Shown: piece by piece, positions 1 through 26,977 of the stretch | Position numbering within the stretch: position 1 is the stretch's first letter | How the letters are laid out: each line of letters starts with the position of its first letter | IMG/VR virus record: IMGVR_UViG_3300025127_005055 | Span: 1-27,998 of that record | Direction: 5' to 3' (one strand) | From: a virus | DNA: 27,998 nucleotides | Program-made: the position numbers and the translations under genes | The notes under the pieces: model-generated | What the model was told of the DNA's origin: nothing | What the model saw: the letters and a program-made list of their open reading frames with translations, nothing else | The model's database searches: none

Positions 1-349
1 GTTCCATGATATCTTTTTGTCGCCAATGCTCGAAGTCTATATCTACATCTGGTAAGTCATCACGCAGTGGGTTTAAGAAACGTGCAACAGGTATGTTCCA
101 TTTTACAGGATCTACATCTGTTATTCCTAACAAGTAACACACAAGAGATGATCCTGCTGATCCTCTTGTCATGTGTTTTACATCTTGTGTTATGTCTATG
201 ATATCGCAAATTTTTAAGAAGTATTCTGTGAATCTTTGTTTTAATATTAATTCAAATTCTTCTGCGAGTCTTTGTTGGTACACTTCACCGTTGGGCATTT
301 GCCTTTTAAAACGTTCAGTGAGCCTTTGTATATTTTCTAAATCTTTCAT
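1..349 (-). CDS. DNA polymerase III alpha (DnaE)-like protein, N-terminal part, runs off the left edge
   Basis: The open frame starts at ATG 349 and is still open at base 1, giving 116 complete codons. A possible SD (AGAGG) precedes the start. The translation resembles the palm region of bacterial replicative polymerase DnaE: an 'EYFLKICDII' segment (about residues 42-51), a glycine/serine motif RGSAGSSLVCYLLGITDVDP (62-81), RFLNPLRDDL (90-99) and the catalytic aspartate motif PDVDIDF (100-106), in the order seen in DnaE. The PHP exonuclease domain that precedes this in cellular DnaE is absent, since only about 60 residues lie before the RGSAG motif. The family call is firm for this segment; polymerase activity is unproven because the rest lies outside the window. 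A second DnaE-like gene lies at 6355-6921. Confidence 0.75.
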   Translation of the reverse strand, partial: MKDLENIQRLTERFKRQMPNGEVYQQRLAEEFELILKQRFTEYFLKICDIIDITQDVKHMTRGSAGSSLVCYLLGITDVDPVKWNIPVARFLNPLRDDLPDVDIDFEHWRQKDIME

Positions 350-399: not shown

Positions 400-1245
400 T
401 TATGATTTTGGTAAAATGGTCAAGCCGTAATATGCCATGAAAGGTGCAAGGAATGTGCCATCACCTAGTTCTTCAGAACTCCACTGAATACTAGTTAAAC
501 AATTAAAAACTTTTTGTCTTTCTAGACCTGAAGGATAATATAAATCATTTATTTTTGAAATACTGTCTACACTATAATCTTTTAACACACCCGGAACTAA
601 AGATATCACAGGCACTCCTTCTCTTAATGCTTCTGTTACAGCCATGGTGTGTAAACTAATAACGCAATATATGTTGTCCAAAGAATCACAAAAACCTCGT
701 GAACCTCTAGATTTCTTGTTTCCTTTTTTTCTTATTTTTATAGGTCTATTAGTGTATTTCTTAACTTCAGTTTCAACTTCGGCTATCCATTCGTCAACAG
801 ACTTTTTAATTCCATAAAAGTCTAATCCATTTTGACTAGGAGCAACAATGTACACTTGCTCACCTTTTTGCCATTTTTTGATTGGCATATTAAATTTATT
901 GAACCGTGCATTATCATATCCTTGTTTGATTTTAGTCACTTGATTTTCATTAAAGCAAACCCGCCAAAACTTTGGCTTCCACCAATTACAATAACCTTTT
1001 TCAACGTTAATATAATCTATTCCTTTGGCTTCTAATTTTTGATGTATCCTTGGATCTTCATGTCCACCAACCCCGCCAAGTATGACCAAATCATCTTTTG
1101 TAATATCAGCATCTGCACTTACAACCATAGGCAAATAAAATTTACGTGAAATATTTTTTGCAATCCATGTTGAAGTTTCAGTTGACGTTCCTGTATCTAA
1201 ATCTTTTGGAACAACTACTCTTGAATATGTTTTATTCATTTTCAT
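400..1245 (-). CDS. glycosyltransferase-like protein (GT-B/capsule-type family), isolated copy
   Basis: A protein of about 281 aa. Its C-terminal half shares a pattern with the genes at 16088, 15141 and 13482: a beta strand (VYIVAPSQ), a 'W..E...EVKKYTNRPIKIR' helix-strand, then a strand-loop 'YCVISLHTMAVTEALREGVPVI' region and a late W..EEL..G motif. This is like the nucleotide-binding half of GT-B or capsule-polysaccharide transferases, and the closest relative in the window is the 16088 gene. The start is placed at ATG 1245 (ATG 1239 is also possible; 1248 would be TTG). The gene overlaps the end of gp41 by 14 bases, so it is probably co-translated with the helicase, far from the main glycan block. 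The sugar and the acceptor are unknown. Confidence 0.5.
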   Translation of the reverse strand: MKMNKTYSRVVVPKDLDTGTSTETSTWIAKNISRKFYLPMVVSADADITKDDLVILGGVGGHEDPRIHQKLEAKGIDYINVEKGYCNWWKPKFWRVCFNENQVTKIKQGYDNARFNKFNMPIKKWQKGEQVYIVAPSQNGLDFYGIKKSVDEWIAEVETEVKKYTNRPIKIRKKGNKKSRGSRGFCDSLDNIYCVISLHTMAVTEALREGVPVISLVPGVLKDYSVDSISKINDLYYPSGLERQKVFNCLTSIQWSSEELGDGTFLAPFMAYYGLTILPKS

Positions 1246-2677
1246 CAAGGTTCTTTAAGAAGTCCCTTAATTTAGTCTGATCTGTGTTGTCAGTGTTCAC
1301 TCTGCCTACTGTGTCACCTTTTCTTGGATCTGGTGGAGTAATTTCTTTTGGAGCAGATGCGTCTTCAGTGATTGTGGAAGTTTGTTTTAATGAATTATAG
1401 ATTGTACTTTTACGTTTGTCAAACTCTTGATATTCTGCATCATCGCCTAAGTCTCTAATACGCAAACTGTCCACATCAAATTCTAAATCAATTTTCATAC
1501 CAACACCGCTAGAACTTCTTGTTTTCATTAATTGTATTTGATATCTACCACGTTCTCTCATTGCTCTACTTGTGAATATACCAAACACGTTGTCAGCAGT
1601 TTGTATTTTACTTAAACCACCTGCTATGTGCGAATGATCAAACTCTATTTCTTCTACTGCACCTCTGTTTAACTGTGATGCTGTTACAAATATTACATTT
1701 AATTCCATAGCCAAGTTTCTTAATTCTTCTGAAACAAATTTATCTTTAACAAATAAATCACTTGGACTTACTTTTTTGTTCATGGGCATCATCAAATCTA
1801 AATAATCAACTAGTACAACATCTAGTTTTGTTCCTGTTTTAATTTCATATTCTTTAATATAACTTCTCAAATCATTTGTAGTTTTACCACTTGGCATATA
1901 TTTTATTTGGAACTTACCTGATTTTTTACCAAGTAATTTAACTTTCATTTCTACGCCATCTAAGTCTTTAAATATTTCTTTTGTTGGAACATCTGTCAAC
2001 ATCGAATCCACCCTCATACTTACAAGTGGTTCGCTCAATTCAAAAGTAATGTATGCAACGTTCATGCCATTCAACACCCAGTTACAACCTAAGTTTGCAA
2101 GAAACAAAGACTTACCTGCACCTGATCCTCCTGCAAAAATATTCAGTTCACCTTTGTTAAATCCACCAAACAATCTTTTATCTAGTGTTGCCCAACCTGT
2201 GCTGACTTGACCATTTTGATTTTTCAATCCCATTAGTCTTGCTTTAGGATCTGCAAAGTAATCTGTTCCTATATCTTTGTGTAATCCAATCTGCACTGCC
2301 TTTTTAACCAAATCTTCAACCGGACCATATTCACCTTTTTCAAGCATATCAGCAGATTTCAATATTGCTCTTTCTAAACTTTTATGTCTAACAAAAGTTT
2401 CAAAGTCATTTAGTAACCAGTCGAAATGTTCTTCTGTAAGTTGTTCAGTTTGTTTCAGATCAACACTACAAGATTTATTAACAATGTCATATGTTGGCAA
2501 CTGATTATAATCAGTTACATATTTGTTTATGAACTGTGCTGTGTCTTGAAGTTTTCTGTCAAACAATGAATGATCAAATATAGATTGGCAACGCACGAAT
2601 GTTTCTGCGTTTTGCAACATCATTTCTAGATACAACTTTTGTATGTCATATCCATAATCTTTATTCTGTTTTGCCAT
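1232..2677 (-). CDS. gp41: replicative DNA helicase gp41 (DnaB-like)
   Basis: 481 aa, close to T4 gp41 (475 aa). It forms the hexameric 5'-3' helicase that unwinds the fork and works with primase gp61. The C-terminal RecA-like ATPase domain has Walker A GGSGAGKS (residues 183-190), Walker B VVLVDYLDLM (287-296), and a SQLNRG motif (334-339) typical of DnaB-type helicases. The N-terminal 150 residues form the helical collar domain. The start is set at ATG 2677 (MAKQNKDYG) rather than the longer TTG-initiated frame at 2734: a consensus promoter (TTGACA-17-TATAAT) sits just upstream, and the -10 ends 7 bases before this ATG. The gene overlaps the carbamoyltransferase stop by 17 bases. Confidence 0.93.
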   Translation of the reverse strand: MAKQNKDYGYDIQKLYLEMMLQNAETFVRCQSIFDHSLFDRKLQDTAQFINKYVTDYNQLPTYDIVNKSCSVDLKQTEQLTEEHFDWLLNDFETFVRHKSLERAILKSADMLEKGEYGPVEDLVKKAVQIGLHKDIGTDYFADPKARLMGLKNQNGQVSTGWATLDKRLFGGFNKGELNIFAGGSGAGKSLFLANLGCNWVLNGMNVAYITFELSEPLVSMRVDSMLTDVPTKEIFKDLDGVEMKVKLLGKKSGKFQIKYMPSGKTTNDLRSYIKEYEIKTGTKLDVVLVDYLDLMMPMNKKVSPSDLFVKDKFVSEELRNLAMELNVIFVTASQLNRGAVEEIEFDHSHIAGGLSKIQTADNVFGIFTSRAMRERGRYQIQLMKTRSSSGVGMKIDLEFDVDSLRIRDLGDDAEYQEFDKRKSTIYNSLKQTSTITEDASAPKEITPPDPRKGDTVGRVNTDNTDQTKLRDFLKNLDENE

Positions 2678-3671
2678 GTTCCTTATTATACCACATTTCG
2701 TTTGAATTGTCAATGTGCTTATGATATTTGGCAAGTACAGCGCCTATGCAACTGCCAGGATCTCCAGGATTTTTTGGAACCCATATGTCATCCCAAACAG
2801 ATTCTAATTTGCCTACTGCTGTCTTATTCAATGCACAACCACCTACCAAAATTATGTTTGATGTTTTAATGTTCATTTGTATCCATGAACTTGCACACAT
2901 TAACACTTGTTCAAAAATGTGTTGAGTAGTTGCGGCAATGTCTGCCAAATCTTGTTCTGTGTTTAATTCTGGTCTCCACCAATTGCAACCTCTGTGAAAA
3001 TTTATTCTTGTTTTAAAAGGCATTCTTGTTTCAACTAATTCTTCCATAAACATTCTGTAATATTTTCTCCAATAACCTTTTTTAGCAAGTTGTTCAAATT
3101 TATGCTCTTCTGCATTTGCTTTGAGACCAACTCTCTGAGTCATTGCTGAATAAAATAAACCAATGCTATGTGGGTAATTTTGTGTGTATTTCTTTTCTAG
3201 TTTGTTACCATGTCCATGCCATATTGTAAACGTTTCAAACTCTCCTATACTATCTAAAACTACAACTGCGGCATCTTTATATGGGGAAGTGTAATATCCA
3301 TATGCGGCATGACTCTCATGATGATCAACATATTCTATTGGCACATGATGAATGCCTGCTTTACCTAAAAACTTTTTAATATTGTTTTCTTTCCAATTCC
3401 AACCTTGACCCGCTATCAGTTGACGCATAGTTTTTTTGAAAGGTTTTTCATAAAAATATATCTTAGCAGGGAAGGCCCATTTAGGATTTGCTCTTACTTC
3501 TGCCATCAGTTTAGGACAAAGTGTAGGATCTCCAGGTATACCGCTGAAGTCCTTAGACATTCCTGCCCATTTTAATTTTAAATGATAGTGATCTGTTAGT
3601 CCTGCTACTCTCCATTCCATCACGGCAAGACTGGCATCGTGATTATTTCCTGTTACTCCCCAAACTATCAT
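2661..3671 (-). CDS. NodU/CmcH-type carbamoyltransferase, Kae1-like domain only
   Basis: 336 aa. It has the N-terminal (Kae1-like) domain motifs of the NodU/CmcH/TobZ O-carbamoyltransferases in order: GVTGNNHDASLAV (residues 5-17), metal-site HHESHAA (117-123), VLDSIGE (138-144), IGLFYSAMTQRVG (about 170-182), EEHKFEQLAKKG (188-199), GGCALN near residue 278, and WVPKNPGDPGSCIGAVL near 300-316. Family members are usually about 550-600 aa because a YrdC-like C-terminal domain makes carbamoyl-adenylate; here the protein stops right after the GAxL motif. Known activities are carbamoylation of sugars or antibiotics, and of 5-hydroxymethylcytosine by some phage members. The substrate here is not known. 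ATG 3671 has a good SD (TAGGAG). Confidence 0.85.
   Translation of the reverse strand: MIVWGVTGNNHDASLAVMEWRVAGLTDHYHLKLKWAGMSKDFSGIPGDPTLCPKLMAEVRANPKWAFPAKIYFYEKPFKKTMRQLIAGQGWNWKENNIKKFLGKAGIHHVPIEYVDHHESHAAYGYYTSPYKDAAVVVLDSIGEFETFTIWHGHGNKLEKKYTQNYPHSIGLFYSAMTQRVGLKANAEEHKFEQLAKKGYWRKYYRMFMEELVETRMPFKTRINFHRGCNWWRPELNTEQDLADIAATTQHIFEQVLMCASSWIQMNIKTSNIILVGGCALNKTAVGKLESVWDDIWVPKNPGDPGSCIGAVLAKYHKHIDNSNEMWYNKEHGKTE
2685..2713 (-). promoter_or_regulatory. sigma70-type promoter for gp41
   Basis: The minus strand reads TTGACA (2713-2708), a 17-base spacer, then TATAAT (2690-2685), a perfect consensus match. It lies inside the 3' end of the carbamoyltransferase gene. The expected transcription start, about 7 bases after the -10, falls within 0-2 bases of the gp41 ATG at 2677. 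This predicts a leaderless transcript. Confidence 0.8.
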
Positions 3672-3678
3672 GTTTCTC

Positions 3679-3813
3679 CTATTTGTATATAAACGGGTCT
3701 CTCTTTTGTAATTCTCTTATTTTTTTCTTGTATTTGATATAATTTACAAGTTTTCTAATAGGAGAGGTTACAAAATAGTAAACCTTTTTTAATAATTCTT
3801 TTACGCGAACCAT
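3679..3813 (-). CDS. small basic protein, 44 aa, unknown function
   Basis: ATG 3813 opens a 44-codon frame ending in TAG at 3681-3679. An SD (GAGG) lies upstream within the primase gene. The product begins MVRVKELLKKVYYF, is rich in Lys, Tyr and Ile, and ends KRDPFIYK. It overlaps the last 13 bases of the primase gene in another frame and ends 7 bases before the carbamoyltransferase ATG, so it fills the only gap in this operon. Lysine-rich amphipathic helices flanking VTSPIRK suggest membrane or nucleic-acid contact, but no family is recognised. Confidence rests on the SD, the fit between neighbours and the protein-like composition. Confidence 0.6.
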   Translation of the reverse strand: MVRVKELLKKVYYFVTSPIRKLVNYIKYKKKIRELQKRDPFIYK

Positions 3814-4805
3814 TTTTTCATCCTCAGTTTAATTTTAAGTTGTGACTCTTCAGCATTCTTCACTATTGTGTATAAAGTGTATAGTCTACCATATTTACGC
3901 ACGGCATCATTAACATCTTTTACATCTTGGCTCCACTCAGGCATACTTACACTCCAACCTGCCTCAATACTGTCATGTACTAATTTTTGACCTGCTTCAT
4001 CTCTGTCAGGAACAACTATTACGTGTTTGCCTAAACTGTTCAACAATGCTGTTTGTTGTTCTTTCACTTCACTGCCTAGCAGTGCAACACCATCAATAGC
4101 AATAGCATCAATTGGCCCTTCAACAGCAACCACATATTTTCTATCATCATTTTGTTCATCAATGTTAAACACATACCCTGGTTGTTGTTCGGACAGATAC
4201 TTAACTTTGCTTTCAACTGTTTTTCTTGCTGTGTATCCTACAATTTTTTCTCTATAATAGAAAGGAATAATTAATCTATCTTTAAAGCCTACTTCTGGAC
4301 TCCAATAAAATTCATAATCATTTAGAGTCATTTTTCTTTCCATGATATATTCCAGCACCTTAAACAAGTTAGGATCCATACCACTCGGTTCTAATTCTTT
4401 GTATGTTGCCCATTCATGTATAGGCTTAGACTTTGCTGGAAGTTCTTTTGTTTCAAACTTAGGTAAACTTATAATTGATTTGTATCCAACTGTATCAGTT
4501 TTTGTTTGCAGTGCCTGAAGTGCCAATTTTGTAATTACATCATCTGGAACATTTAGCCATCGCATAAACTTTTTCATTTTGTAAGAAATGTTTCTGCCTA
4601 TACGCCAACTTGTTTTGAATCCACAGTTGAAACAATGATAACTTACACCTTCTTCTGCATTTGCAATCAATCCACCTCTTTGTCTTGTGTCAGGAGTTGT
4701 ACCATTATGCTCACAACATGGAGCATTAAAAGCCAACCAACCACTTGGCGTTTGTTTCCGTTTTGCAGGCAAGTAAATTTGTAATGCATCAAAGACAATA
4801 TTCAT
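3801..4805 (-). CDS. gp61: DNA primase gp61
   Basis: 334 aa, close to T4 gp61 (342 aa). It makes the short RNA primers for lagging-strand synthesis in complex with gp41 helicase. An N-terminal zinc-binding region has C30/C31-x-H33 and C58-x2-C61 (HCFNCGF). The catalytic TOPRIM region has VVAVEGPIDAIAIDG (about 225-239; acidic E229) and VVPDRDEAG (264-272). The ATG at 4805 lies 6 bases after the -10 of a strong promoter, so the message may be leaderless. Helicase gp41 follows two genes downstream, so primosome genes are grouped. Confidence 0.92.
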   Translation of the reverse strand: MNIVFDALQIYLPAKRKQTPSGWLAFNAPCCEHNGTTPDTRQRGGLIANAEEGVSYHCFNCGFKTSWRIGRNISYKMKKFMRWLNVPDDVITKLALQALQTKTDTVGYKSIISLPKFETKELPAKSKPIHEWATYKELEPSGMDPNLFKVLEYIMERKMTLNDYEFYWSPEVGFKDRLIIPFYYREKIVGYTARKTVESKVKYLSEQQPGYVFNIDEQNDDRKYVVAVEGPIDAIAIDGVALLGSEVKEQQTALLNSLGKHVIVVPDRDEAGQKLVHDSIEAGWSVSMPEWSQDVKDVNDAVRKYGRLYTLYTIVKNAEESQLKIKLRMKKWFA

Positions 4806-4840: not shown

Positions 4841-5647
4841 TTAATTTCGAACTAAAACTTTGGTAATTTTATTTTGAAACACATTATCCACCTGGATAGT
4901 GCTAGTGTGTTTGATTCTTAAGTTGCTGTACACACCATTGAAGTTTACGTATTTTAGTGTGTCAGAACTTGTTGCTGTGAAAGTATCTATGTCCACCCAA
5001 AATGTAGATACAGTTGGACTGTTTTCTAAAGTACCTTGTATTACTATGTCACCTTCTGCACCGTCCAAATAATATGCAACAGTGTGAAGTGCCGAATTAC
5101 CATTTATGGCTGGTTGAGCAGGAATATTTTCTGAATAGAATATATCAGATGCTCCTTGGTCCTGTGTAAATGTCGTGACTGATGTAGAATCTAAAGGACC
5201 TGGAAATTCATCTTTTGATACAAAAATAGTTCCTTTTGCATCAAAGTTTGTGCCTGAATGTAAAATAGTTTTGGAGTTATCGCTTGTTTTGTGTAAAAAT
5301 ACTGAATAAGAAAGATACTGTGATGGAATATTTAAAAGGTCATTTTCACTAATTGTAATTGTAAAGTGACCAACTTTGCTTGGAGTTGATGTTTCAAGTA
5401 TAGTGCCATCTCTTTCAACTATTAATCTATTGTTTTCATCATACAATTTAAATTTAGGTGTGTAAGTATTCAGTATGCTAACAGGCTTTTGATCCGCATT
5501 AAGCACATTAAATTGAATAGATGTGTCTATTCCACGATATACATTGACATTTCTTTGATACACAGTTCTATACTCCGTTACTTCGCCAGCCAGATTCGCT
5601 GTCAGGCTTACACTGTTATTTAATAAATATTTTGGCACAAGTTGCAT
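4841..5647 (-). CDS. probable virion protein, beta-rich (baseplate/fibre-type)
   Basis: 268 aa from ATG 5647 (MQLVPKYLLNNSVSL). The longer frame upstream, to 5770, is not used because it would overlap the divergent plus-strand gene. The first 140 residues (VYRGIDTSIQFNVLNADQKPV, then TPKFKLYDENNRL) look like the immunoglobulin-like N-terminal domain of phage baseplate/host-attachment proteins (BppU-like). The C-terminal 80 residues (VAYYLDGAEGDIVIQGTLE, then W..DIDTF) form a second beta sandwich common in marine phage structural proteins. A late-type AATAAATA element 20 bases before the start agrees with a structural role. The exact position in the virion is not determined. Confidence 0.55.
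   Translation of the reverse strand: MQLVPKYLLNNSVSLTANLAGEVTEYRTVYQRNVNVYRGIDTSIQFNVLNADQKPVSILNTYTPKFKLYDENNRLIVERDGTILETSTPSKVGHFTITISENDLLNIPSQYLSYSVFLHKTSDNSKTILHSGTNFDAKGTIFVSKDEFPGPLDSTSVTTFTQDQGASDIFYSENIPAQPAINGNSALHTVAYYLDGAEGDIVIQGTLENSPTVSTFWVDIDTFTATSSDTLKYVNFNGVYSNLRIKHTSTIQVDNVFQNKITKVLVRN
5622..5629 (+). promoter_or_regulatory. possible late promoter element for the plus-strand gene
   Basis: AATAAATA on the plus strand lies 55 bases before the ATG at 5685. By eye it is the only plus-strand ATAAATA in the window, and it lies upstream of the only plus-strand gene. It sits inside the 5' end of the divergent virion gene. Confidence 0.35.
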
Positions 5648-5667
5648 AATCTTTAATAATTTTAATG

Positions 5668-5677
5668 TATTTATTGG
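5668..5677 (-). promoter_or_regulatory. late-type promoter CCAATAAATA for the virion protein
   Basis: CCAATAAATA on the minus strand ends 20 bases before ATG 5647. The core matches the T4-like late element (N/T)ATAAATA read by the phage sigma gp55. The same 10-mer occurs at 18656-18665 and 24194-24203, each directly upstream of a gene start. Confidence 0.6.
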
Positions 5678-5684
5678 TTTAAGA

Positions 5685-6050
5685 ATGCTGTTAGACGACA
5701 TAGAAAAGAACTTTCCATTTATATCCGTAGTAGAGTACGGAGGACAGGAGTATGTGGGGGTGATAAACAATCAAGACAATGCAATTACCAGTATGTACAT
5801 ATACACAGACATACATTCTAAACTAAAAGAAGCATTTCTTGAACTGGGTGGCACATGGTGGCATGAGTCCAACAGAATGATTCCAATTGGCATATTTTTG
5901 AGACAGGAAATGGAAAAATTTAAAAATGTGTTAATGATAATGAATACAAAAGATGTATCAGTCAAACTAGGTCCAGTGACTAGTCTTGCCAATTTAGCGA
6001 TGAAACGCAGTAAACGTAAGTCCGTTCAATTGGTACGTAAGCCTAAATAA
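5685..6050 (+). CDS. conserved-type hypothetical protein, the only plus-strand gene
   Basis: 121 aa from ATG 5685. The sequence has well-formed protein character: VVEYGGQEYVGVI, a GGTWWHESNRMIPIGIFL segment, NTKDVSVKLGPVTSLANLA and a very basic tail (MKRSKRKSVQLVRKPK). It resembles a hypothetical protein I associate with T4-like marine phages, but no function is known to me. It is transcribed divergently from the virion gene (37 bases between start codons), and its TAA directly abuts the stop of the DUF2061 gene on the other strand with no spacer. No strong SD precedes the start. The basic tail suggests RNA or DNA contact (inference). Confidence 0.75.
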   Translation: MLLDDIEKNFPFISVVEYGGQEYVGVINNQDNAITSMYIYTDIHSKLKEAFLELGGTWWHESNRMIPIGIFLRQEMEKFKNVLMIMNTKDVSVKLGPVTSLANLAMKRSKRKSVQLVRKPK

Positions 6051-6365
6051 TTAATCAAATAGTAGTTTTGATAGACGTTTATTACCTTTTTTATCAAGGT
6101 AATTTTTTACTCTCTTAACTTTCCAATCTTCATAAGGAAAAACATATGTTGGGTGATCAGTCTTGTCTTTACCCCATCTAATTTTATTCCAAACTCTTTC
6201 GTGTCCGTAATACAAAAACATTTTTGTGATTACTTCTATACCTGCTATGGCACCTGCCATGCTTACTGTTCCTGTTATTAGCCATGAAATAAGAAAGGTA
6301 TCACTTGTTGCTAGGATACGCCATGATAATGTTTTTGCTAAACTTCTTCTTGCTTTACTTTTCAT
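6051..6365 (-). CDS. DUF2061 family membrane protein
   Basis: 104 aa, matching the DUF2061 pattern: R.LAKTLSWRI.ATSDT (residues 7-23), a hydrophobic span FLISWLITGTVSMAGAIAG (24-42), then EVITKMFLYYGHERVWNKIRWG (44-65). One or two membrane-embedded helices and a basic C-terminal tail are predicted. The function of the family is not established. It is the last gene of the 13458 operon and starts inside the last codons of the DnaE-like gene (11-base overlap). Confidence 0.8.
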   Translation of the reverse strand: MKSKARRSLAKTLSWRILATSDTFLISWLITGTVSMAGAIAGIEVITKMFLYYGHERVWNKIRWGKDKTDHPTYVFPYEDWKVKRVKNYLDKKGNKRLSKLLFD

Positions 6366-6921
6366 TTTTTAATTGCTCACAAATCAAATTCATATGAACA
6401 ACTACGGCAACAGCATAAGATGTTGCGTGGGACTTTTTAAAAAAATATTTGTCATCAGATGGTTTTACCCAAACTTCTTGCATAATTTTATTCCAAGTTT
6501 CATTTAACAAATACCTTTTGCTAGGTCTGATGATTGCCAACACTGCCGCTAGTTGTTCAATGCTTTTTGGTTTTAACTTTTTTAATATTTCTGAATGACC
6601 ATTTAAATGAAACACTTTGTCACTGAAGTCTTTGGCTTCTAGTAACTCCCACATTGGTTGTTTGTTCATTAATTGTTTTAGATGATCATCATCTTTAATG
6701 TCTTTGTATATGCTTACGTTCAAGCAATCTATTTTAAAATAATTTCTATCTTCAGCAGTTTCATAATCTATTGTTGCCATGTTTGTTGCTGGATCATGTG
6801 GAACCTCTGTAAAGTAAACACCTGTATTGTGTTTCTTATCTGTATCTAATTTTGCTATCCTATGTTTTAATTTGTCTAACAAAATTGTTCTATCTGCGAA
6901 GTCTATATCTACATCAGGCAT
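6355..6921 (-). CDS. miniature DNA polymerase III alpha (DnaE)-like protein
   Basis: 188 aa that collapse the DnaE catalytic core. The protein opens directly at the aspartate motif MPDVDIDF (residues 1-8; D3, D5, D7). It then has HNTGVYFTEVP (31-41; compare the DnaE HAGGVVIA strand), YFKIDCLN (61-68; D65 matches the third catalytic Asp in KFDFLG), PMWELL..KDFSDKVFHLN (89-107), LKPKSIEQLAAVLAIIRP (116-133) and FKKSHATSYAVAV (161-173; compare FNKSHAAAYA). About 150 residues between the Asp motif and the HAGG strand, most of the fingers, and the PHP, tau-binding and OB domains are missing. The start is fixed by the upstream rpiB gene (8-base overlap). All three catalytic aspartates are kept, but processive polymerisation seems unlikely. 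Confidence 0.72.
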   Translation of the reverse strand: MPDVDIDFADRTILLDKLKHRIAKLDTDKKHNTGVYFTEVPHDPATNMATIDYETAEDRNYFKIDCLNVSIYKDIKDDDHLKQLMNKQPMWELLEAKDFSDKVFHLNGHSEILKKLKPKSIEQLAAVLAIIRPSKRYLLNETWNKIMQEVWVKPSDDKYFFKKSHATSYAVAVVVHMNLICEQLKNEK

Positions 6922-7357
6922 CTAATTTTTTAACCCTTCTTGTGTGTCTACCTTTCAAAAATTTAGTTTCAAAAAATGCTTCTATCATATATTTTGCTGT
7001 GTCAAAATCTGTGTAGTCTGCACCAATACATAATACATTCATATCGTTGTGTTGTCTAGCCTGTTCCACATCAAATACATCAAAACACACTACTGCTCTT
7101 GCTCCTTTAAATCTATTTGCCTGTATTGCCATACCAAAACCACTACCACAAAACAAAATAACCCTATCATCTTTTTCTAAGAACCTGCAGGCTTTTTTGG
7201 CTATGTCGTTATAATCTGTTCTTTTATTTTCATAAATGCCTACATCATGAAATGTAACAATATCTCCCATGCACTCATCTATTGGACAAATCCATTTAGA
7301 GACTTGATCCTTTAGTTCCATGCCTCTGTGGTCAGCGCCTATTGTTAAATCTATCAT
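6914..7357 (-). CDS. rpiB: ribose-5-phosphate isomerase B
   Basis: 147 aa, the normal RpiB/LacAB length. It interconverts ribose 5-phosphate and ribulose 5-phosphate, a step that feeds ribose into nucleotide synthesis. Visible motifs: GADHRG (residues 7-12; active D9/H10), DYNDIA (48-53), LFCGSGFGM (68-76; catalytic-type C70), a long RAVVCFDVFDVEQARQHNDMN helix (87-107; H103), GRHTRRV (136-142; phosphate-binding Arg). The active-site residues all appear intact. It overlaps the 2OG oxygenase gene by 4 bases (ATGA) and sits in a replication operon, so a likely role is supplying pentose for phage dNTPs, an auxiliary metabolic gene. Confusion with LacA/LacB is possible but less likely. Confidence 0.87.
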   Translation of the reverse strand: MIDLTIGADHRGMELKDQVSKWICPIDECMGDIVTFHDVGIYENKRTDYNDIAKKACRFLEKDDRVILFCGSGFGMAIQANRFKGARAVVCFDVFDVEQARQHNDMNVLCIGADYTDFDTAKYMIEAFFETKFLKGRHTRRVKKLDA

Positions 7358-8007
7358 AATTTTAATTTACTGTGGCCTCCACCAACTTCACCTTCAACCC
7401 AAGTGTTGAATGACAGTGTATATCTTATATCATTTGGACTAGCATTAATTTCAACACTGTGATTAAGAAAACTAGGAAATAACATCAAGTCCCATTTCTT
7501 TGGACAAACTGCCATTCTTGTTTGATGATACAAATAACTTCTTTTGTTTGTGAAATCAAATTGTTCTTTGTGATCTAGTCTTACAGTATCAGTAAAAATA
7601 TTTGTATGATTTTTATCTTTGTGAAATACAATATTTGATGTGTCTTTACAATCTGTTAAAAACAAAACACCGGAGATCAAACTATTGCTGTGATAATGTT
7701 CCTGTATGTATTGATTTTGTTCGTATTTGTTACACCAACTTGTTGTTAAGACAAATTTATGCTTTTCATGTACATCTAAATAACCGTGCATGAATTCACT
7801 TACTTGATTTAAAATTTCAGTTTTTAAAGGCAATAAATTATCTTTATCTAGCACATAATCATCTTTTGATATGTAAGATACTTTGTGTGAACGTAATTCA
7901 TAATCTAATTTTTCTTTTATAAATTTTTCACTTTCCTCATAGGGTTTAATTTGTGTTTGACATAGTGGTATACCAAACAAAGGTACAACGTTATTTTCTT
8001 TTATCAT
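7354..8007 (-). CDS. 2OG-Fe(II) oxygenase (PF13759-type)
   Basis: 217 aa. The core pattern is that of the putative 2-oxoglutarate/Fe(II) oxygenases common in marine phages: WCNKYEQNQYIQEHYHSNSL (residues 91-110) with H104/H106 for iron, SGVLFL (112-117), a WDLMLFPSFLNHSVEIN segment (172-188) with distal iron ligand H183, and R195 in RYTLSFN for 2OG. The enzyme would hydroxylate a protein, nucleotide or small molecule using 2-oxoglutarate and O2; the substrate is unknown. It overlaps neighbours by 4 bases on both sides. A role in DNA-base or virion modification is possible but not shown. Confidence 0.8.
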   Translation of the reverse strand: MIKENNVVPLFGIPLCQTQIKPYEESEKFIKEKLDYELRSHKVSYISKDDYVLDKDNLLPLKTEILNQVSEFMHGYLDVHEKHKFVLTTSWCNKYEQNQYIQEHYHSNSLISGVLFLTDCKDTSNIVFHKDKNHTNIFTDTVRLDHKEQFDFTNKRSYLYHQTRMAVCPKKWDLMLFPSFLNHSVEINASPNDIRYTLSFNTWVEGEVGGGHSKLKL

Positions 8008-8687
8008 ATTCTTGCCTCTTTTGTTATTTCTTTTACCATTTCAATATCTGCTGGCAGTCTTTTAAATCTTAATGCCCAATGATTAGGATCCATGATAGGA
8101 TACACAATTTGTAGTTGTTCATTGTTAAATCTCTTCATCATTTCTTTTCCGCTTTTACAATTTAATATTAACCAAGGACTTATTTTGCCGTCTTTGATAT
8201 CCATTACTGCTCTATTTAAACTTGCATAACGAAAGTAATCACTCCAAGGTGCTTCTTTTTCATCTCCCCAATCCATCATAGTTTTAATTGACCTTTCCAT
8301 TGCAGTTTCAACCTTTTCACGTAAGATTAAATCTATTGCATATTTTTGATACAATTCTTCTCTACACCAGTGGTCTAATTTAACTCCGCTTGTTACAACG
8401 TAATCAATGTACTTGCTAGGATACAACGGCTTAACATTGCTGATAAAACTTCCAAACTTTACAAATGCTGTGTAATATGGACTTTTGCAAAACTCTTCAT
8501 ATGTTTTAGTTTTGGACGCTTTTTGACACAGTTCATAAAATCTTACAAAAGTCTGATAACCTAATTGTACTCTGCGTTCATCTTTTTGTAAGAATCTTCT
8601 TTTTTGTTCGCACATATGTACTGCTAGTGTTTTCTCTTTAGTAAATTTTGCATTACAATATTGACAAGTGTATAATTTTTCTATCAT
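8004..8687 (-). CDS. zinc-finger protein, conserved T4-like phage type
   Basis: 227 aa. A C2HC zinc finger is at the N-terminus: C8-x2-C11-x12-H24-x-C26, followed by a basic helix KRRFLQKDERRVQLGY (29-44). The remainder is helical with conserved-looking segments EEFCKSPYYTAFVKFGSF and GKISPWLILNC. I associate this layout with a hypothetical protein of T4-like cyanophages and pelagiphages, but no role is known to me. Its place next to a clamp-loader-like gene and downstream of uvsW in one operon suggests a nucleic-acid-binding accessory factor (inference). Confidence 0.65.
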   Translation of the reverse strand: MIEKLYTCQYCNAKFTKEKTLAVHMCEQKRRFLQKDERRVQLGYQTFVRFYELCQKASKTKTYEEFCKSPYYTAFVKFGSFISNVKPLYPSKYIDYVVTSGVKLDHWCREELYQKYAIDLILREKVETAMERSIKTMMDWGDEKEAPWSDYFRYASLNRAVMDIKDGKISPWLILNCKSGKEMMKRFNNEQLQIVYPIMDPNHWALRFKRLPADIEMVKEITKEARI

Positions 8688-9163
8688 AGTTGCTTTTTTA
8701 TTTGCTCAGGTGTCATGCCAAAGTCCTTTGCTAACTGTTTAATTTCTTTTGGGTCATTTATAGTAACAAGTAATTTTATTTCATCTGATTTCATTGTAGG
8801 ATATAGTTTTTCTAAAAATTTTGTTGTTTTCGCATTTCCGCCAGACTCTTTAAATTTGTATCCTATCCATTCATGATACCTAATATTTTTCTTAGAACTT
8901 GCAGTCATGCAAAGTAGATACCATAAAAGTTTTTTATGCTTTGTTAGTGTAAAGAAGTTCTTATTATAATATTGATTTGTTTTAAGTATTTGTAGTTCTT
9001 TGTCCTGTCTACTACCTTTTACAGCACTTGCATATCTATTCAACAAATAGAAACTAACTTGCTTTCTCTCATCGTCAGATAAATCTTCCCAAACATTCTT
9101 TGCGTTCATGTCAATTGCCGCAAGTATATCTTTTAAAGGTAATTTGTTAATCTTCGTAGCCAT
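8684..9163 (-). CDS. gp62: probable clamp loader small subunit gp62-like
   Basis: 159 aa (T4 gp62 is 187 aa). The organisation fits gp62 of marine T4-like phages: an N-terminal PLKDILAAI helix, an FYLLNRYAS segment near residues 38-46, N66/Y69 near the 'NKNFF' region, a helical middle, and a C-terminal MTPEQIKKQL helix. gp62 would pair with gp44 to load the gp45 clamp; gp44 and gp45 are not in this window. Identity is low and the call rests on pattern, so an unrelated helical protein remains possible. It overlaps the upstream gene by 17 bases and the downstream gene by 4. Confidence 0.45.
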   Translation of the reverse strand: MATKINKLPLKDILAAIDMNAKNVWEDLSDDERKQVSFYLLNRYASAVKGSRQDKELQILKTNQYYNKNFFTLTKHKKLLWYLLCMTASSKKNIRYHEWIGYKFKESGGNAKTTKFLEKLYPTMKSDEIKLLVTINDPKEIKQLAKDFGMTPEQIKKQL

Positions 9164-9407
9164 ATAATTCTAATAACATTGTATACTTTTCCCATGCTTT
9201 TTGCAAGCCTTTATGTTCCAAACACATGGCAACAGCACGTTCAGTAACAAAGAATTGTCTATTTTGACATTCTTCTTCTATTGTTGCTTTGTTACTTTTG
9301 GAAATTAATACCTTTGGACCTTTGCCACCGATTGGTTCTCCATAAACGGTTTCACCACCATCGGGAGATGTAAAAATCATTTGTTCTTCTTTTTTCTTCT
9401 TTGGCAT
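9147..9407 (-). CDS. small hypothetical protein, 86 aa
   Basis: It begins with a lysine cluster (MPKKKKEEQ), followed by FTSPDGGETVYGEPIGGKG and a C-terminal helical part LEHKGLQKAWEKYTMLLELYGYED. The start lies right at the stop of the upstream 168-aa gene (1-base TAATG overlap) and the end overlaps the gp62-like gene by 17 bases, so it is translationally coupled. No family assignment. The SPDGGETVY motif looks like short proteins in T4-like marine phage replication regions. A small replication or transcription accessory factor is conceivable, but nothing in the sequence proves it. Confidence 0.7.
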   Translation of the reverse strand: MPKKKKEEQMIFTSPDGGETVYGEPIGGKGPKVLISKSNKATIEEECQNRQFFVTERAVAMCLEHKGLQKAWEKYTMLLELYGYED

Positions 9408-9913
9408 TACAACAACTGCGTGTATTCAATACTTTCACACTGTCTTGATATATCTTTAACAAAGAAAGCACAAGATGGTTGTTTTCCATTTGTTAAAGGC
9501 GTACTAATCAATTGATTATTTTTCATTTTAGGAAAGTACCATTTCACTTCATTATAAAAATTTACTACATTTACCTCTTCAAAGTCTGCTTTGAAACTGC
9601 TTAATGGATTAAAAATAAATGCTGAAAATCCTCTATCTGCTATGCTGGTTAAAGGCACAACTTCAACTGTATTGCTGTCTTCTTTATCTCCAACTGCTAT
9701 GCTCCAATCCAATGGCATTGTTATCTCTTTGCCTCCGATGTCTAGCACTATTGCTGGTGCACTGAAAGATTCAATATAGATTAAAGGTATAAAGAAAAAG
9801 TCTGGCTCTTTAGGATTGCTGTTGTCTAAAACAGAAAAAGCCATATCTTCCGACACTGTTTCAGGCAACTTGTCTAAATTGTAGGACAAATTGTCCACTG
9901 TTAATATTCTCAT
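9407..9913 (-). CDS. conserved-type hypothetical protein, 168 aa
   Basis: The protein is beta-rich with distinctive segments FFFIPLIYIESFSAPAIVL (residues 39-57), ITMPLDWSIAVGD, PLTSIADRGFSAFIFNPLSS and VKWYFPKM (123-130). I recall a similar hypothetical protein in T4-like cyanophages, but no known function. It overlaps the nitrilase-like gene by 4 bases (ATGA) and the 86-aa gene by 1 base, in a replication operon. No signal peptide, zinc site or transmembrane segment is obvious. Confidence 0.7.
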   Translation of the reverse strand: MRILTVDNLSYNLDKLPETVSEDMAFSVLDNSNPKEPDFFFIPLIYIESFSAPAIVLDIGGKEITMPLDWSIAVGDKEDSNTVEVVPLTSIADRGFSAFIFNPLSSFKADFEEVNVVNFYNEVKWYFPKMKNNQLISTPLTNGKQPSCAFFVKDISRQCESIEYTQLL

Positions 9914-10729: not shown

Positions 10730-12184
10730 TTAGTTCCAATCTACCTTTTCTAATGTAAAAGGATAGTTTGCTTCTTTGTAAAATTTCTTTCTATGTGTTA
10801 AATGTCTTTTTGCAAATTTGCAAGTTGATGTTATGTCCCAAATTTGCACAAAGTCTTTGTCTTTTGCTTTACGTATTCCACGTCCTATTGACTGAATTAC
10901 TCTTACGAAAGACTTGCCTGGCTCTATTAATACCAAATTAAATATCCTTGGAATATTAATACCTACAGATGCTACACCATAAGTTGCAATTATCACTTTG
11001 TTATCGGCACTGCTGATTTCATCATACTGTTCTTTTCTTTCTTCTAATTTTGTTTCACCTTGTATGAACACACTGCCGTCGATTAATTTTTGCAGTTCTG
11101 TACCTGCTGTTAGTCTATCAATTAAAACAAGTGTGTTGCCTGAGGCTTTAATTTTTTCAATAAGTTTTGCTATGTATTCTAAACGTTTTTGATTTGTTGT
11201 GAGATATTTTAATTCTTCTTGATAGTTCTTATACACTGGAGTATCGATCATTTGCACAACATTTACATGACATTTAGATAACACTCCTTTATCTTGTAAT
11301 TCTTTTGCACTAATTTGATTAACAACAGGACCTATACTTGCGAGTATGCTTTGAAATTCAAATTGTTCTTTAGGTACTGTGCCTGTTAATCCCCATCTAA
11401 CTGGAGCATTTTTCAAATGATGTGTCAGTAATTTTTTCAAAACATCTGCTTTTGCTTGATGAACTTCATCAACAATAATTGCTTTGACACCATCTAAAAA
11501 TTCTGTAAGTGTAAGTACCGAGTCTCCTGATTTTGCTCTTTTATCTAAAATATTAAGACTTTGCCATGTACAAATAGTGTGTGTTCTATTCAACTCTTTC
11601 CTATCACCAAAGTAAACACCCACGTCTAATCCAACAGTTTTATAATCTTCTTCTGTTTGTGTTACAAGAGACTTGTTAGGAACTATTACAACTGTTCTTC
11701 CTATACTTTCACATAAACTTGATAAACAAGCAGTGATAATTGTTTTACCAGCACCAGTGGCGACCTCTTGTAAACTTTGCGGTGTGCGTAAAAAATTATT
11801 CACAACTTCAACTTGATAGTCTCTTAATTCAATTGATTGACCTTCGCATTGATGTCCCTTGGGCCATTTTTTATCAGCAAAGTAGTCTTTGTCTATCAAA
11901 CTAAAATTTAAATCTGTTTGTTGTCTTTTGTCATCAATAGAATCTACTTCAATGCCTTCTTCATGAATTATTTGTAAAATTTTGTCTAAATGATTTACAT
12001 AACCATTACCACCTAAACCAAAGAAACCAACTTTACCGTCCCATCTACCTAACTTATATTGAGGCAAATATCTAGCATATGGAACTTGCCATTTCATTTT
12101 GTTTGATATTTTTCTTCTTACATCAACAGGAAGTCCTTCAATTTTTACATTGACTTCATCGTTTATTATAATTTTACATCTCAT
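10730..12184 (-). CDS. uvsW: SF2 DNA helicase UvsW
   Basis: 484 aa, close to T4 UvsW (about 500 aa). It is a branch-migration/recombination helicase that also removes R-loops and helps switch replication from origin- to recombination-dependent mode. Motifs: N-terminal UvsW-type domain (1-110, with QYKLGRWDGKVGFF at 42-55), Q-like RDYQ (121-124), Walker A ATGAGKT (142-148), DEVH box (239-242), motif III GLTGT (265-269), motif V around TYGVASVGINI (401-411) and motif VI QSIGRGIRK (431-439). It starts within the stop of the 425-aa gene (4-base overlap), indicating translational coupling. Confidence 0.95.
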   Translation of the reverse strand: MRCKIIINDEVNVKIEGLPVDVRRKISNKMKWQVPYARYLPQYKLGRWDGKVGFFGLGGNGYVNHLDKILQIIHEEGIEVDSIDDKRQQTDLNFSLIDKDYFADKKWPKGHQCEGQSIELRDYQVEVVNNFLRTPQSLQEVATGAGKTIITACLSSLCESIGRTVVIVPNKSLVTQTEEDYKTVGLDVGVYFGDRKELNRTHTICTWQSLNILDKRAKSGDSVLTLTEFLDGVKAIIVDEVHQAKADVLKKLLTHHLKNAPVRWGLTGTVPKEQFEFQSILASIGPVVNQISAKELQDKGVLSKCHVNVVQMIDTPVYKNYQEELKYLTTNQKRLEYIAKLIEKIKASGNTLVLIDRLTAGTELQKLIDGSVFIQGETKLEERKEQYDEISSADNKVIIATYGVASVGINIPRIFNLVLIEPGKSFVRVIQSIGRGIRKAKDKDFVQIWDITSTCKFAKRHLTHRKKFYKEANYPFTLEKVDWN

Positions 12185-13464: not shown

Positions 13465-13493
13465 AGTATAACGGATTTTGGTTAAAAAGTCAA
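13465..13493 (-). promoter_or_regulatory. sigma70-type promoter for the UvsW operon
   Basis: TTGACT (13493-13488), 17 bases, TATACT (13470-13465), then six bases and the ATG at 13458. The -35 lies in the last codons of the upstream glycosyltransferase gene. The first 18 bases are identical to the gp61 promoter, and the -10-to-ATG spacing is the same. A transcription start at the expected position would yield a leaderless mRNA. Confidence 0.8.
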
Positions 13494-14318
13494 TCTAGAA
13501 AAGGGCAATCCTTGGGCAATTTCATCAACTGTCCACTCTGTATTTGCATAATCATTCAACCATTGCTGTCTTTCCGGCATCAAAGGTTCATTTATTGTAC
13601 TGAAATCTTTATTTGCAACATCATAAGCAAGACTTTGTTCTCCTACAAATGCAGGTATACCATTTAATACAGCATGAATTCCAGGATTACTACTGTGACT
13701 AACTACTGCCCATGCGTTTGTAAAATTTAAATCGAAATCATCATATGTGTTTGCAATTTGTTTAGGTACTTCATAACTTACATTGTCAAGCACAGGTAAA
13801 TTCAACAAAGGACATCTAGGGTGGGGTCTTACTATTATTTTTCTATCAGTGTATTTTCTAATTTCTGTTACAGTGTGTCTAACATATTGATCCAGTGCAG
13901 GTTGGTCTTTCCATTGTTCACTTTTGTCATGTTGTAAACAAATTAAAATATGTTCTCCGTCTTGTCTCCACGGTTTTAAATTAATTGCAAATTGTTTTGC
14001 ACGTAAATCATTATTATCTTTTGTTCCGAAATCTGCTTTTCTATTAATGCCATTTAATGCAACTTTCCATGTGTTGTTTCTTTTTATACCACCAACTTCA
14101 ATAACTAAAACATTTTTATTTTGTTTTCTAAAGTGTTCCCAAATGTCTTTGTTGCGAGCCATTCTACCATGCCATAGTAACGACCATATTACTGGCACAT
14201 CACAATCCATATTGTTTTCGTCGACTGTGTGTCCTAAAGTTTTTAATCCTTTTGATACGGCTTCCCATATAGGAGGACTTACTAAAGCACTGTTTTTTGT
14301 AAACAAACTAAATTTCAT
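13482..14318 (-). CDS. glycosyltransferase-like protein (GT-B/capsule-type family)
   Basis: 278 aa. The N-terminal half includes VIWSLLWHGRMARN and VIEVGGIKRNNTWKV. The C-terminal half has ILICLQHDKSEQW (about 123-135), TVTEIRKYTDRKIIVRPHPRC, AWAVVSHSSNPGIHAVLNGIP and a final W..DEIAQG. The HPR and serine-rich donor-site-like motifs resemble capsular polysaccharide/Kdo-type GT-B transferases. Related copies lie at 15141, 16088 and 400. It is the last gene of the glycan block and overlaps the upstream GT-A gene by 11 bases. The donor sugar is unknown. Confidence 0.6.
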   Translation of the reverse strand: MKFSLFTKNSALVSPPIWEAVSKGLKTLGHTVDENNMDCDVPVIWSLLWHGRMARNKDIWEHFRKQNKNVLVIEVGGIKRNNTWKVALNGINRKADFGTKDNNDLRAKQFAINLKPWRQDGEHILICLQHDKSEQWKDQPALDQYVRHTVTEIRKYTDRKIIVRPHPRCPLLNLPVLDNVSYEVPKQIANTYDDFDLNFTNAWAVVSHSSNPGIHAVLNGIPAFVGEQSLAYDVANKDFSTINEPLMPERQQWLNDYANTEWTVDEIAQGLPFSRLTF

Positions 14319-15144
14319 TCCAATATTTTTCTGTGCGTTGTTGCATTAAATCTTTTCTAGCACTTTTACGTTGTGTCTTTCTTGATCCTTTCATATGATC
14401 AAAATATTTTCCCAATTCTGAATTTATTAAAGGATGACCGCCACCGCCTGTCTTTGCAGTTTTATTATAGATATTTTTAGAATAATCATGATATGCTGTG
14501 TCTAATTTTGCAAGTTTTTTTAAAATATATCCAAACACAAAACTATCATGCCATTCATCTAGAGTAAAAATGCCTTTGTCAGCGTCTTCGTACATAAGTT
14601 CAAACTGTTGCATAAATTTTTTACAAGTATCATTTGTTCTATTCAATCCGTAAAATCCGCACTCGGGCCAAGTTTGTGTACCACGTCCTCTACCTACAAA
14701 CGTTATCCATGTATCATCTGGCAGTAAATCTTCAAATTGTTTGTAAGATATAGGACTGTGTACAAATGTATCTGCGTCGATCCATACTACCCATTTAGAC
14801 TCAGCAGTCTTATAAGTTTCAAACACAGCATAAGTTTTATTTGCAAATCTTATTGCGTCCCATTTAAATTCTTTATGGTGGTCTCTTGGTCGCTTTTCTG
14901 GGAAAGGACATTTACCATTTGCTTTAGGTACATTCTGCCATTTGTTTTTAAACTCTACTAACTGTTTAAGATTTGTTTGAGGTACTATTGTAATTTGTGT
15001 TGGATCAGGATTGACAGGCTCGCAGTTTTCTGCATACACAATAAGTTTTACTTGTTTGTCTACATTCGTAGCGAAACTTTCAAGAAATCTTTGTCCATAC
15101 AAATCTAAACCTTCTTTGTGAAATGTTGTGACTGCTGTTATCAT
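14308..15144 (-). CDS. GT-A fold glycosyltransferase
   Basis: 278 aa from ATG 15144 (MITAVTTFHKEG). The upstream extension to 15171 would need a TTG start and is not preferred. The DxD metal/nucleotide-sugar motif is IDADTF (D123, D125). Further features are KWDAIRFANKTYAV (94-107), ECGFYGLNR, EWHDSFVFG and the C-terminal GGGGHPLINSELGKYFDHMKG segment. The pattern matches putative glycosyltransferases of T4-like marine phages. The ATG sits within the TGA of the upstream gene (4-base overlap). The acceptor is unknown. Confidence 0.72.
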   Translation of the reverse strand: MITAVTTFHKEGLDLYGQRFLESFATNVDKQVKLIVYAENCEPVNPDPTQITIVPQTNLKQLVEFKNKWQNVPKANGKCPFPEKRPRDHHKEFKWDAIRFANKTYAVFETYKTAESKWVVWIDADTFVHSPISYKQFEDLLPDDTWITFVGRGRGTQTWPECGFYGLNRTNDTCKKFMQQFELMYEDADKGIFTLDEWHDSFVFGYILKKLAKLDTAYHDYSKNIYNKTAKTGGGGHPLINSELGKYFDHMKGSRKTQRKSARKDLMQQRTEKYWNEI

Positions 15145-16885: not shown

Positions 16886-16886
16886 A

Positions 16887-18633: not shown

Positions 18634-18655
18634 ATAGGATTCCTTTGTTTCAAAA

Positions 18656-18665
18656 TATTTATTGG
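18656..18665 (-). promoter_or_regulatory. late-type promoter CCAATAAATA for the distal glycan genes
   Basis: CCAATAAATA on the minus strand ends 22 bases before ATG 18633, in the 37-base gap after the 18671 gene. This is the only such gap inside the glycan block. The predicted leader carries AAGGA. The same 10-mer occurs at 5668-5677 and 24194-24203. Confidence 0.58.
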
Positions 18666-18670
18666 GCGAA

Positions 18671-24185: not shown

Positions 24186-24193
24186 ATTTTGAA

Positions 24194-24203
24194 TATTTAT
24201 TGG
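24194..24203 (-). promoter_or_regulatory. late-type promoter CCAATAAATA for the glycan block
   Basis: CCAATAAATA on the minus strand ends 8 bases before ATG 24185, in the 37-base gap after the 152-aa gene. With T4 late spacing (start 6 bases past the element) the leader would be about 3 bases. It is the third exact copy of this 10-mer. Confidence 0.58.
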
Positions 24204-24222
24204 AATGTATTTTTGGTGTGCT

Positions 24223-24903: not shown

Positions 24904-25959
24904 TTACTCCTCTTCTTTTACAGTTTCTTTGTCTTCTTCAGGTACTAAATTACTGAAATCTTTCATTATATTATCTAACAGTTCTCCACCTGATTCCCAA
25001 ACTCTTCTATATTCTTTGACTTCAGTTCCTTTTGAGTCAACATATTTAAGTCTGTTACCGTCTTTCGTTAAGATGCCTTTTTTCTCAAACAAGTCTACAA
25101 GTCCACTGTAAGGGTTCATTCCTGTTTCATATGGAATTTTAACTTGTACTCCTTCAAAAGGTTTAGCATATCTTGTTTTCATAACTTTACAAGCCGCTCT
25201 TATACCTTTTACATCAGTTGTCTTATTACCTTCTTCATCTTCTTTTAATTTTAATTTACGCATTGCAACCACAATTGAACTTGCATAGATAAATCCTTGT
25301 CCGCCTGATATCTTATCATCTGGATCGAACATATCTTGTGATGCATATGTGTGGTTTGTTGCAACAAGTCCTACGTTATGACTACCAAACATATTGACTG
25401 TATTTCTAACAAGTGCCGTAAGTGCCTTAGGTTTTCTACCCATGTCACCTTTCATGTCACCTTTTGTAAATTGATCAACATCTGTTGGAGTTAATAACAT
25501 ACCTAAAGAATCAATAACAAATAATACTTTTGGTCTTTCTTCTTCTGGCATAGCCTTATAGTCTTGCATGAAAGTTGATACTGTTTTAGCAACATCATCT
25601 ATCATCGACATATTAAGTTTTAATAATTTTTTCTCATCTGTGTCAACATCTAATGCTGTTAACCATTGTTCGTCTAATGCGTTTTCTGAATCGATTAGTA
25701 CAACAAATATACCTTGATCCTGTGCGGCTTTTACAATGTTTCCTGCACAAATATAAGATTTACCAGAACCAGACTCACCTGCAAACACAGTTACTTTGCC
25801 TAGTGGTATACCTTTGTTGAAATCTCCACTTACTAGATAGTTAAGTGCATAATTTCCTGTTGAAATCCAATCAGTTGGATCATGAAATCCAGCACTCATA
25901 CCTGTAATGGATTTTGTTAAACTTTTTCTAAATTTGCTTACGTCAAATGCCTTTACCAT
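24904..25959 (-). CDS. uvsX: RecA-like recombinase UvsX
   Basis: 351 aa (T4 UvsX 391). It forms filaments on single-stranded DNA and drives strand exchange for recombination-dependent replication. Walker A is GESGSGKS (61-68), Walker B LFVIDSL (147-153), with E/D-rich VVLIDSENALDE (87-98) and the ATNHTYASQD motif (about 206-215). The acidic C-terminal tail (PEEDKETVKEEE) is typical. A weak SD (AAAGGG) precedes ATG 25959. It follows gp32 with a 52-base gap containing a strong hairpin. Confidence 0.95.
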   Translation of the reverse strand: MVKAFDVSKFRKSLTKSITGMSAGFHDPTDWISTGNYALNYLVSGDFNKGIPLGKVTVFAGESGSGKSYICAGNIVKAAQDQGIFVVLIDSENALDEQWLTALDVDTDEKKLLKLNMSMIDDVAKTVSTFMQDYKAMPEEERPKVLFVIDSLGMLLTPTDVDQFTKGDMKGDMGRKPKALTALVRNTVNMFGSHNVGLVATNHTYASQDMFDPDDKISGGQGFIYASSIVVAMRKLKLKEDEEGNKTTDVKGIRAACKVMKTRYAKPFEGVQVKIPYETGMNPYSGLVDLFEKKGILTKDGNRLKYVDSKGTEVKEYRRVWESGGELLDNIMKDFSNLVPEEDKETVKEEE

Positions 25960-26011: not shown

Positions 26012-26977
26012 TTATTTTTGTTGTCTCGCTCTTATCATTGCCAAGATGTCCTCTGCTTTACTACCTGATTTATTATCATCTGTAGCAGGCTTTGGTGCTT
26101 CTTGAGTTTTAGTTTCAGCAACTGGTTCCGCTTTTACCGCCGGAGCAGGTGTTTCTGCTTTTGGAGTAACTGGATCTCCTGTTCTTGAACTAGCACCTGC
26201 CGGTCTAAAGTATTGACCAAACTTTTCTTGATCATATGCTTCACCGTCAACTGATGCCTCAAACATCTCTTTCATTACCTTAACTTCTACTTCAGAAGGT
26301 TTTTTAGGAAGGAAACCATTTAAGTCGAATAGACCATTGGATTCAATCGCTTTATTTTCTTCTTCAGTTAAAGGTCTTGATTTTCTTGACCATGTTGATG
26401 TTGAATAATCAGCATAACCACCTTTTGATGTTTTGATTATTCTGAAGTCAACACCGTTTGTTGAGTCTGTTGGAAGATCTTCCATATCTGGATCCATTAA
26501 TGCTCCTTTAATTATTTGGAATATTTGTGGACCAATTATAAATCTTCTAATTGGATTCTCTGGAGTGTTTTCTTCGTTTAGTGGATCATCTTTCACAAAA
26601 CCTTGGAAGATATAACTTCTTTTCTTCCAATATTTTCTTCCCATGTCCTCTAACTTAGGATCCTTAAACCAACCTCTTACTTCAGAAAGTATTGGACAAG
26701 TTTCACCATACATTTCCATACATGGTACTTGTACTGTTGTTGGTCTTGAATCAGTATCACCTTTTACTCCTGCGAAAGGAAGTTTGATCATCAATCTCTC
26801 TTTCCAGAAAAAAGTGTTTTCTTTATCGCCATCTGGCAAGAAACGAACAGTTGCCTGTTCTCCTTCTTTTAGATTCCAAAATGGGTAAATGGCGTTGTCT
26901 CCGCCGGTTCTTGAAGAGCCACCTGACTTTGTTTCTTGTTCTTTCAGTTTTGCTCTTATCTCTGCTAATGTTGCCAT
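26012..26977 (-). CDS. gp32: single-stranded DNA-binding protein gp32
   Basis: 321 aa (T4 gp32 301). It coats single-stranded DNA at forks and in recombination. The N-terminus ATLAEIRAKLKEQE is the cooperative basic region, and WNLKEGEQATVRFLPDGD (35-52) is the typical start of the OB core. The core has only two cysteines, C86 and C94 (VPCMEMYGETCPIL); the T4 zinc site CPVC is reduced to CPIL. The C-terminal 80 residues are Ala/Pro/Glu-rich and end in basic RARQQK rather than the acidic tail of T4. The ATG has a strong SD (AGGAGG, 9 bases upstream) and two promoters further upstream. Confidence 0.9.
   Translation of the reverse strand: MATLAEIRAKLKEQETKSGGSSRTGGDNAIYPFWNLKEGEQATVRFLPDGDKENTFFWKERLMIKLPFAGVKGDTDSRPTTVQVPCMEMYGETCPILSEVRGWFKDPKLEDMGRKYWKKRSYIFQGFVKDDPLNEENTPENPIRRFIIGPQIFQIIKGALMDPDMEDLPTDSTNGVDFRIIKTSKGGYADYSTSTWSRKSRPLTEEENKAIESNGLFDLNGFLPKKPSEVEVKVMKEMFEASVDGEAYDQEKFGQYFRPAGASSRTGDPVTPKAETPAPAVKAEPVAETKTQEAPKPATDDNKSGSKAEDILAMIRARQQK

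Follow-up and report, generated by a model that had tools for sequence, protein, structure and literature searches.

The 188-residue protein P0001, encoded in the 27,998-nucleotide stretch of viral DNA analyzed here (henceforth the window), is probably the C-terminal subunit (C-half) of a split minimal Pol III alpha-like polymerase, an auxiliary two-subunit enzyme that would work with a distantly encoded N-terminal half (N-half) beside a family B polymerase (PolB). We put the probability of this reading at roughly 78%. It draws on homology, predicted fold, catalytic conservation, the position of the cut and co-occurrence of the halves, from which we infer the complex, its activity and its role. 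Split minimal Pol III as a kind is already published, having been described beside PolB in group 2.2 jumbo phages (Iyer et al. 2021; PMC7824862). New here is a marine lineage of this kind, in which the run of genes that holds the C-half also encodes a second C-family polymerase, devoid of PHP.

A reduced C-family polymerase gene in a T4-like replication cluster

The open reading frame (6921-6355, on the minus strand, which the earlier note left unstated; 188 codons plus stop) begins with MPDVDIDF and contains the motifs PDVDIDF (D3, D5, D7), KIDCLN (K63, D65), the helix motif LKP..IEQLAAVLAIIRP (including R132) and FKKSHATSYA (K163, H165). From these motifs, an earlier note on this DNA had recognized a C-family (DnaE-like) fragment starting at PDVDIDF, which is borne out by a match of residues 3-183 to phrog_11778 ('DNA polymerase', 197 positions; E = 3e-59) and by a C-family profile. 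The profile scan, which covered all window ORFs and reversed controls, matched two window ORFs: one at the left edge (E = 6e-66) and P0001, in which the motifs occur in order (E = 3.5e-4). The next best score belongs to a reversed control (E = 1.9). The match to Pfam DNA_pol3_finger is weak (E = 9e-4, under the curated cut-off) and that to phrog_405 only distant (4.5e-07). A PDB sequence search with P0001 alone as query gave nothing at E ≤ 1, so that profile and fold methods were needed. When the C-half alignment was compared with the single E. coli DnaE sequence using hhalign, sensible placement was confined to a central stretch from about H31 to R132; the end motifs were misplaced, probably because of the large deletions.

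P0001 shares the palm and fingers fold, the catalytic residues and the motif order of bacterial DnaE and PolC, but consists only of the second part of the palm and a reduced fingers region, in 188 as against about 1160 residues. The earlier note was right that the PHP domain, the greater part of the fingers and all that follows them are skipped, the thumb, clamp-binding and OB parts being absent; in addition, the GS motif and the first palm half in which it lies are missing. The spacing between D7 and H31 is 24 residues, compared with 106 in E. coli, so that some 80 residues are missing; the corresponding region of E. coli DnaE is the thumb. Within the fingers, R132 and H165 are separated by 33 residues instead of 121. 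The GRGS loop, also missing, is found in a separate protein family, the N-half.

The genes surrounding P0001 include UvsW, primase, gp41, UvsX and gp32 matches, in agreement with the T4-like replication cluster reported in the earlier note. The features are as follows.

1..349, minus strand: first 116 residues of a PHP-less single-chain DnaE (P0002), cut off at the left end of the window (translation; C-family profile, E = 6e-66)
1232..2734, minus strand: gp41-like replicative helicase, start codon uncertain (phrog_19, 8e-72)
3801..4805, minus strand: DNA primase (phrog_47, 1e-38)
4841..5770, minus strand: structural-like protein, conserved neighbour, start codon uncertain (phrog_14467, 8e-12)
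5685..6050, plus strand: 121-residue ORF convergent to the C-half gene (phrog_11637; same place in the jumbo relatives examined)
6355..6921, minus strand: probable C-terminal subunit of a split minimal C-family polymerase (P0001; phrog_11778, 3e-59; AF2 fold match to DnaE/PolC; invariant catalytic residues in 150 relatives)
8004..8687, minus strand: 227-residue conserved neighbour (phrog_11058; present in relatives)
8684..9163, minus strand: 159-residue conserved neighbour (phrog_11758; present in relatives)
9407..9913, minus strand: 168-residue conserved neighbour (phrog_11279; present in relatives)
10730..12184, minus strand: UvsW-like helicase, conserved neighbour (phrog_16, 7e-81; synteny)
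24904..25959, minus strand: UvsX-like recombinase (phrog_97, 3e-70)
26012..26977, minus strand: gp32-like single-strand DNA binding protein (phrog_1192, 5e-68)

The order UvsW, small proteins, C-half, a convergent ORF of about 120 residues, structural-like protein, primase and gp41 is conserved in relatives, the phrog_11637 ORF being a reversed gene kept inside the replication cluster. Amid these conserved genes, the window carries insertions encoding a carbamoyltransferase, a DUF2061 protein, a ribose-5-phosphate isomerase-like protein (rpiB) and a 2OG-Fe(II) oxygenase (2661-3671, 6051-6365 and 6914-8007). Between UvsW and UvsY/UvsX lies a long run of genes (13482-24251) resembling sugar- and methyltransferases, of which an NAD epimerase (17914-18765) is the only member confirmed by Pfam.

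Using tblastn, full-length homologues of P0001 were found in 63 phage records, including the jumbo phages PA5oct/Paride, Atu_ph07, RaK2, 121Q, GAP32, XacN1, SCTP-2 and Phosso, and homologues of full length also occur in 459 IMG/VR stretches. The same compact form, a search for which the earlier note had suggested, exists in both marine contigs and jumbo phages, the C-half of the marine lineage being about 32-51% identical to the proteins of cultured phages. In a search for cellular versions among 84,980 species, C-half genes were detected in only 11 MAG contigs (L357-L367), labelled as unrelated bacteria and one archaeon and most likely representing phage contigs binned with their hosts.

Across 150 distinct C-halves, D3, D5, D7, H31, K63, D65, R132, H165 and Y169 are invariant where present, confirming that the catalytic aspartates (D3, D5 and D65) are all kept, and in every one of these sequences at most 40 open residues precede the PDVDIDF motif. 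The dN/dS of P0001 relative to close relatives is 0.008-0.10, a range that covers the comparisons with at least 20 changes seen. A length of 188 residues, set against about 1160 for DnaE, could suggest that a captured bacterial dnaE is now decaying, as the word 'remnant' in the earlier note implied. This explanation is refuted by the strength of purifying selection, by the single conserved genomic place of the gene and by a cut that is identical in all relatives (150 C-halves and 85 N-halves). Replication inhibitors are known from phages, and a small protein that has lost its thumb and clamp-binding parts might have no catalytic activity and serve instead as a decoy or regulator, either binding the fork or poisoning host Pol III. 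We consider this very unlikely, as a decoy would have no need of the catalytic aspartates and nucleotide-contacting residues that are invariant in 150 sequences, and the C-half gene lies within the core replication cluster. The fork-binding regulator proposed in the earlier note finds no support and fits badly with the invariant catalytic residues.

A separate N-half and its fit to solved polymerases

When the complete genomes of Paride, Phosso, Atu_ph07, GAP32 and RaK2 were searched with the DnaE NTPase domain, a separate second fragment was found in all five. It spans just the stretch before PDxDxDF, and the protein ends in ...LDxxEFLx. In 85 N-halves, the C-terminal ends all fall within 6 residues of one point, immediately before the cut, and GRGS is invariant. 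No fused N+C mini form was present among the 150 C-halves and 85 N-halves. Where looked at, N-half genes are located near a GroES-like gene and a gp44-type clamp loader gene. P0001 is probably not the stand-alone miniature that the earlier note had described, but one half of a two-gene enzyme whose GRGS-containing palm half is a different protein. It shares the cut, the motifs and a full-length match with the published split minimal Pol III (PHROG 11778 for the C part, 11127 for the N part; PMC7824862), and its relatives keep the same company, that is PolB and T4-like replication genes.

Structures were predicted as single chains, for each half separately. The AlphaFold (AF2) model of P0001 (pLDDT 92.6, pTM 0.79) aligns over 185 residues with 3e0d_A at a Z score of 10.0. 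All 14 rows at Z 6.4-10.0 of the fold search are DnaE or PolC, followed by a next score of 3.3, so that the comparison with DnaE structures advocated in the earlier note yielded good matches to Pol III alpha and PolC only. Likewise, the model of a representative N-half (L108:1017-1526; pLDDT 92.5, pTM 0.76) matches DnaE/PolC at Z 7.7-12.4, the next score being 2.9, with its first 70 or so residues outside the structural match. The two models tile on solved DnaE/PolC entries with a gap of about 6 residues. The N-half and C-half match, respectively, residues 278-393 and 400-784 of E. coli 2hnh, 307-413 and 419-811 of M. tuberculosis 5lew, 294-455 and 461-838 of T. aquaticus 4iqj_C, and 823-964 and 970-1301 of PolC 9qrn_A.

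Co-occurrence with PolB and with a second C-family polymerase

Among the matches listed, the N-half is also present for 59 of 60 phage records with a C-half; PP728206 (109 kb, probably partial) contains a C-half and is absent from the N-half matches listed. All five cultured genomes (Paride, Phosso, Atu_ph07, GAP32 and RaK2) encode a gp43-type PolB along with both halves. Sharanji (OR545507), a phage of E. coli K-12 MG1655, likewise encodes the N-half and the C-half. Of 19 long records, 11 contain both halves and PolB and eight contain one half only (G039, G040, G044, G045, G047, G050, G054 and G055). Three of these eight were examined (G040, G044 and G047) and look incomplete, because the entire neighbourhood of the missing half is absent. 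A 203-kb contig (G031) combines a window-type cluster, the C-half, a PHP-less DnaE (574-residue open frame) and PolB with an N-half located about 77 kb away. PolB thus accompanies the pair in 17 of 17 cases found (five cultured genomes, 11 long contigs and G031). Thirty marine contigs, 20-92 kb in length, yielded no PF00136-type PolB, a result that is uninformative because they are fragments. Neither the 28-kb window nor the 84-92 kb contigs of marine relatives contain the expected N-half neighbourhood. As the window is itself a fragment, the N-half and PolB of this phage would lie outside it. The gp43-type polymerase assumed in the earlier note is therefore present in relatives, while none is seen in the window. 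It belongs to another polymerase family and accompanies the split pair in the relatives' genomes, a combination that the earlier note had called unexpected but that is published for jumbo phages (PMC7824862).

The left-edge ORF can be completed from a sibling contig with the same gene order as the window, in which the whole gene (L002:14573-16204) encodes 543 residues with the GS motif, the aspartates and the fingers all within one chain. Its relatives show Pfam matches to the Pol III NTPase and finger domains only and have no PHP. The enzyme belongs near the phage DnaE-like polymerases of PHROG 405 and 11165, single-chain C-family members to which the 188-residue P0001 is only distantly related. 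In comparison with the split Pol III of jumbo phages, the marine lineage thus has this PHP-less polymerase in the same gene run, as well as extra cluster genes.

In marine contigs, the PHP-less DnaE gene lies a few kb from the C-half gene, and no N-half is seen in the window itself. The C-half might then be a nucleotidyltransferase or accessory protein that needs no partner or has a different one, for example the PHP-less DnaE of the phage or the alpha subunit of the host. We regard this as unlikely: the N-half holds the GRGS loop on which triphosphate binding depends, the two halves recur together across phages, mostly without a PHP-less DnaE, and their predicted structures tile. A regular association of the PHP-less DnaE with the split pair was also considered and rejected, since this polymerase was not found in the five cultured genomes or the 11 long two-half contigs. 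It was not found in marine contigs G003 and G009 either. Conversely, LR756508 (484 kb) carries PolB and a PHP-less DnaE with neither a C-half nor a separate N-half detected, indicating that the two C-family enzymes are separable.

Proposed function of the split pair

In the split-polymerase model that we favour, the C-half would pair non-covalently with an N-terminal subunit of about 170 residues, encoded elsewhere near a clamp-loader gene, and the two would rebuild a single pol-beta-type palm and active site. The N-half would contribute the triphosphate-binding GRGS loop. From the C-half would come the aspartates that bind metal, the K, R and H residues that surround the incoming nucleotide, and the reduced fingers region. 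Having lost the PHP, thumb, clamp-binding and OB parts, the pair would depend on the phage replisome for processivity; an enzyme that lacks both a thumb and a clamp site is expected, by itself, to hold DNA poorly. Most likely the pair serves as a low-processivity auxiliary polymerase alongside the main PolB, filling short gaps, bypassing lesions or copying one of the strands, and translesion or repair synthesis is possible. A DnaQ-like exonuclease is annotated beside UvsW, a few genes from the C-half, in RaK2 (L086:625-1446) and GAP32 (L085:723-1568) and is a possible proofreader for the split enzyme.

If active, the pair would imply that some 360 residues in two pieces suffice for the catalysis of a bacterial replicative polymerase and that C- and B-family enzymes can share a single replisome. 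It would also bear on the suggestion that such forms resemble Pol III ancestors (Iyer et al. 2021; PMC7824862). Phage CBB was earlier noted to have a truncated Pol III alpha of 172 residues, and Atu_ph07 to have a Pol III alpha subunit; the literature searched contained no functional test of split Pol III. Annotation is poor, with both halves labelled 'hypothetical protein' in many phage records.

More tentatively, and with somewhat less than even confidence, we propose that the marine lineage replicates with three polymerases of two unrelated families, namely a T4-type PolB, the split C-family pair and the PHP-less DnaE of about 550 residues, dividing strand or repair work among them. If so, the pair would rank among the smallest C-family polymerases known, and this marine branch with its third polymerase makes such a division of labour directly testable. 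In a related 45.6-kb contig (G032, the contig of L245), the PHP-less DnaE gene is located close beside a PolB gene (28133-30557).
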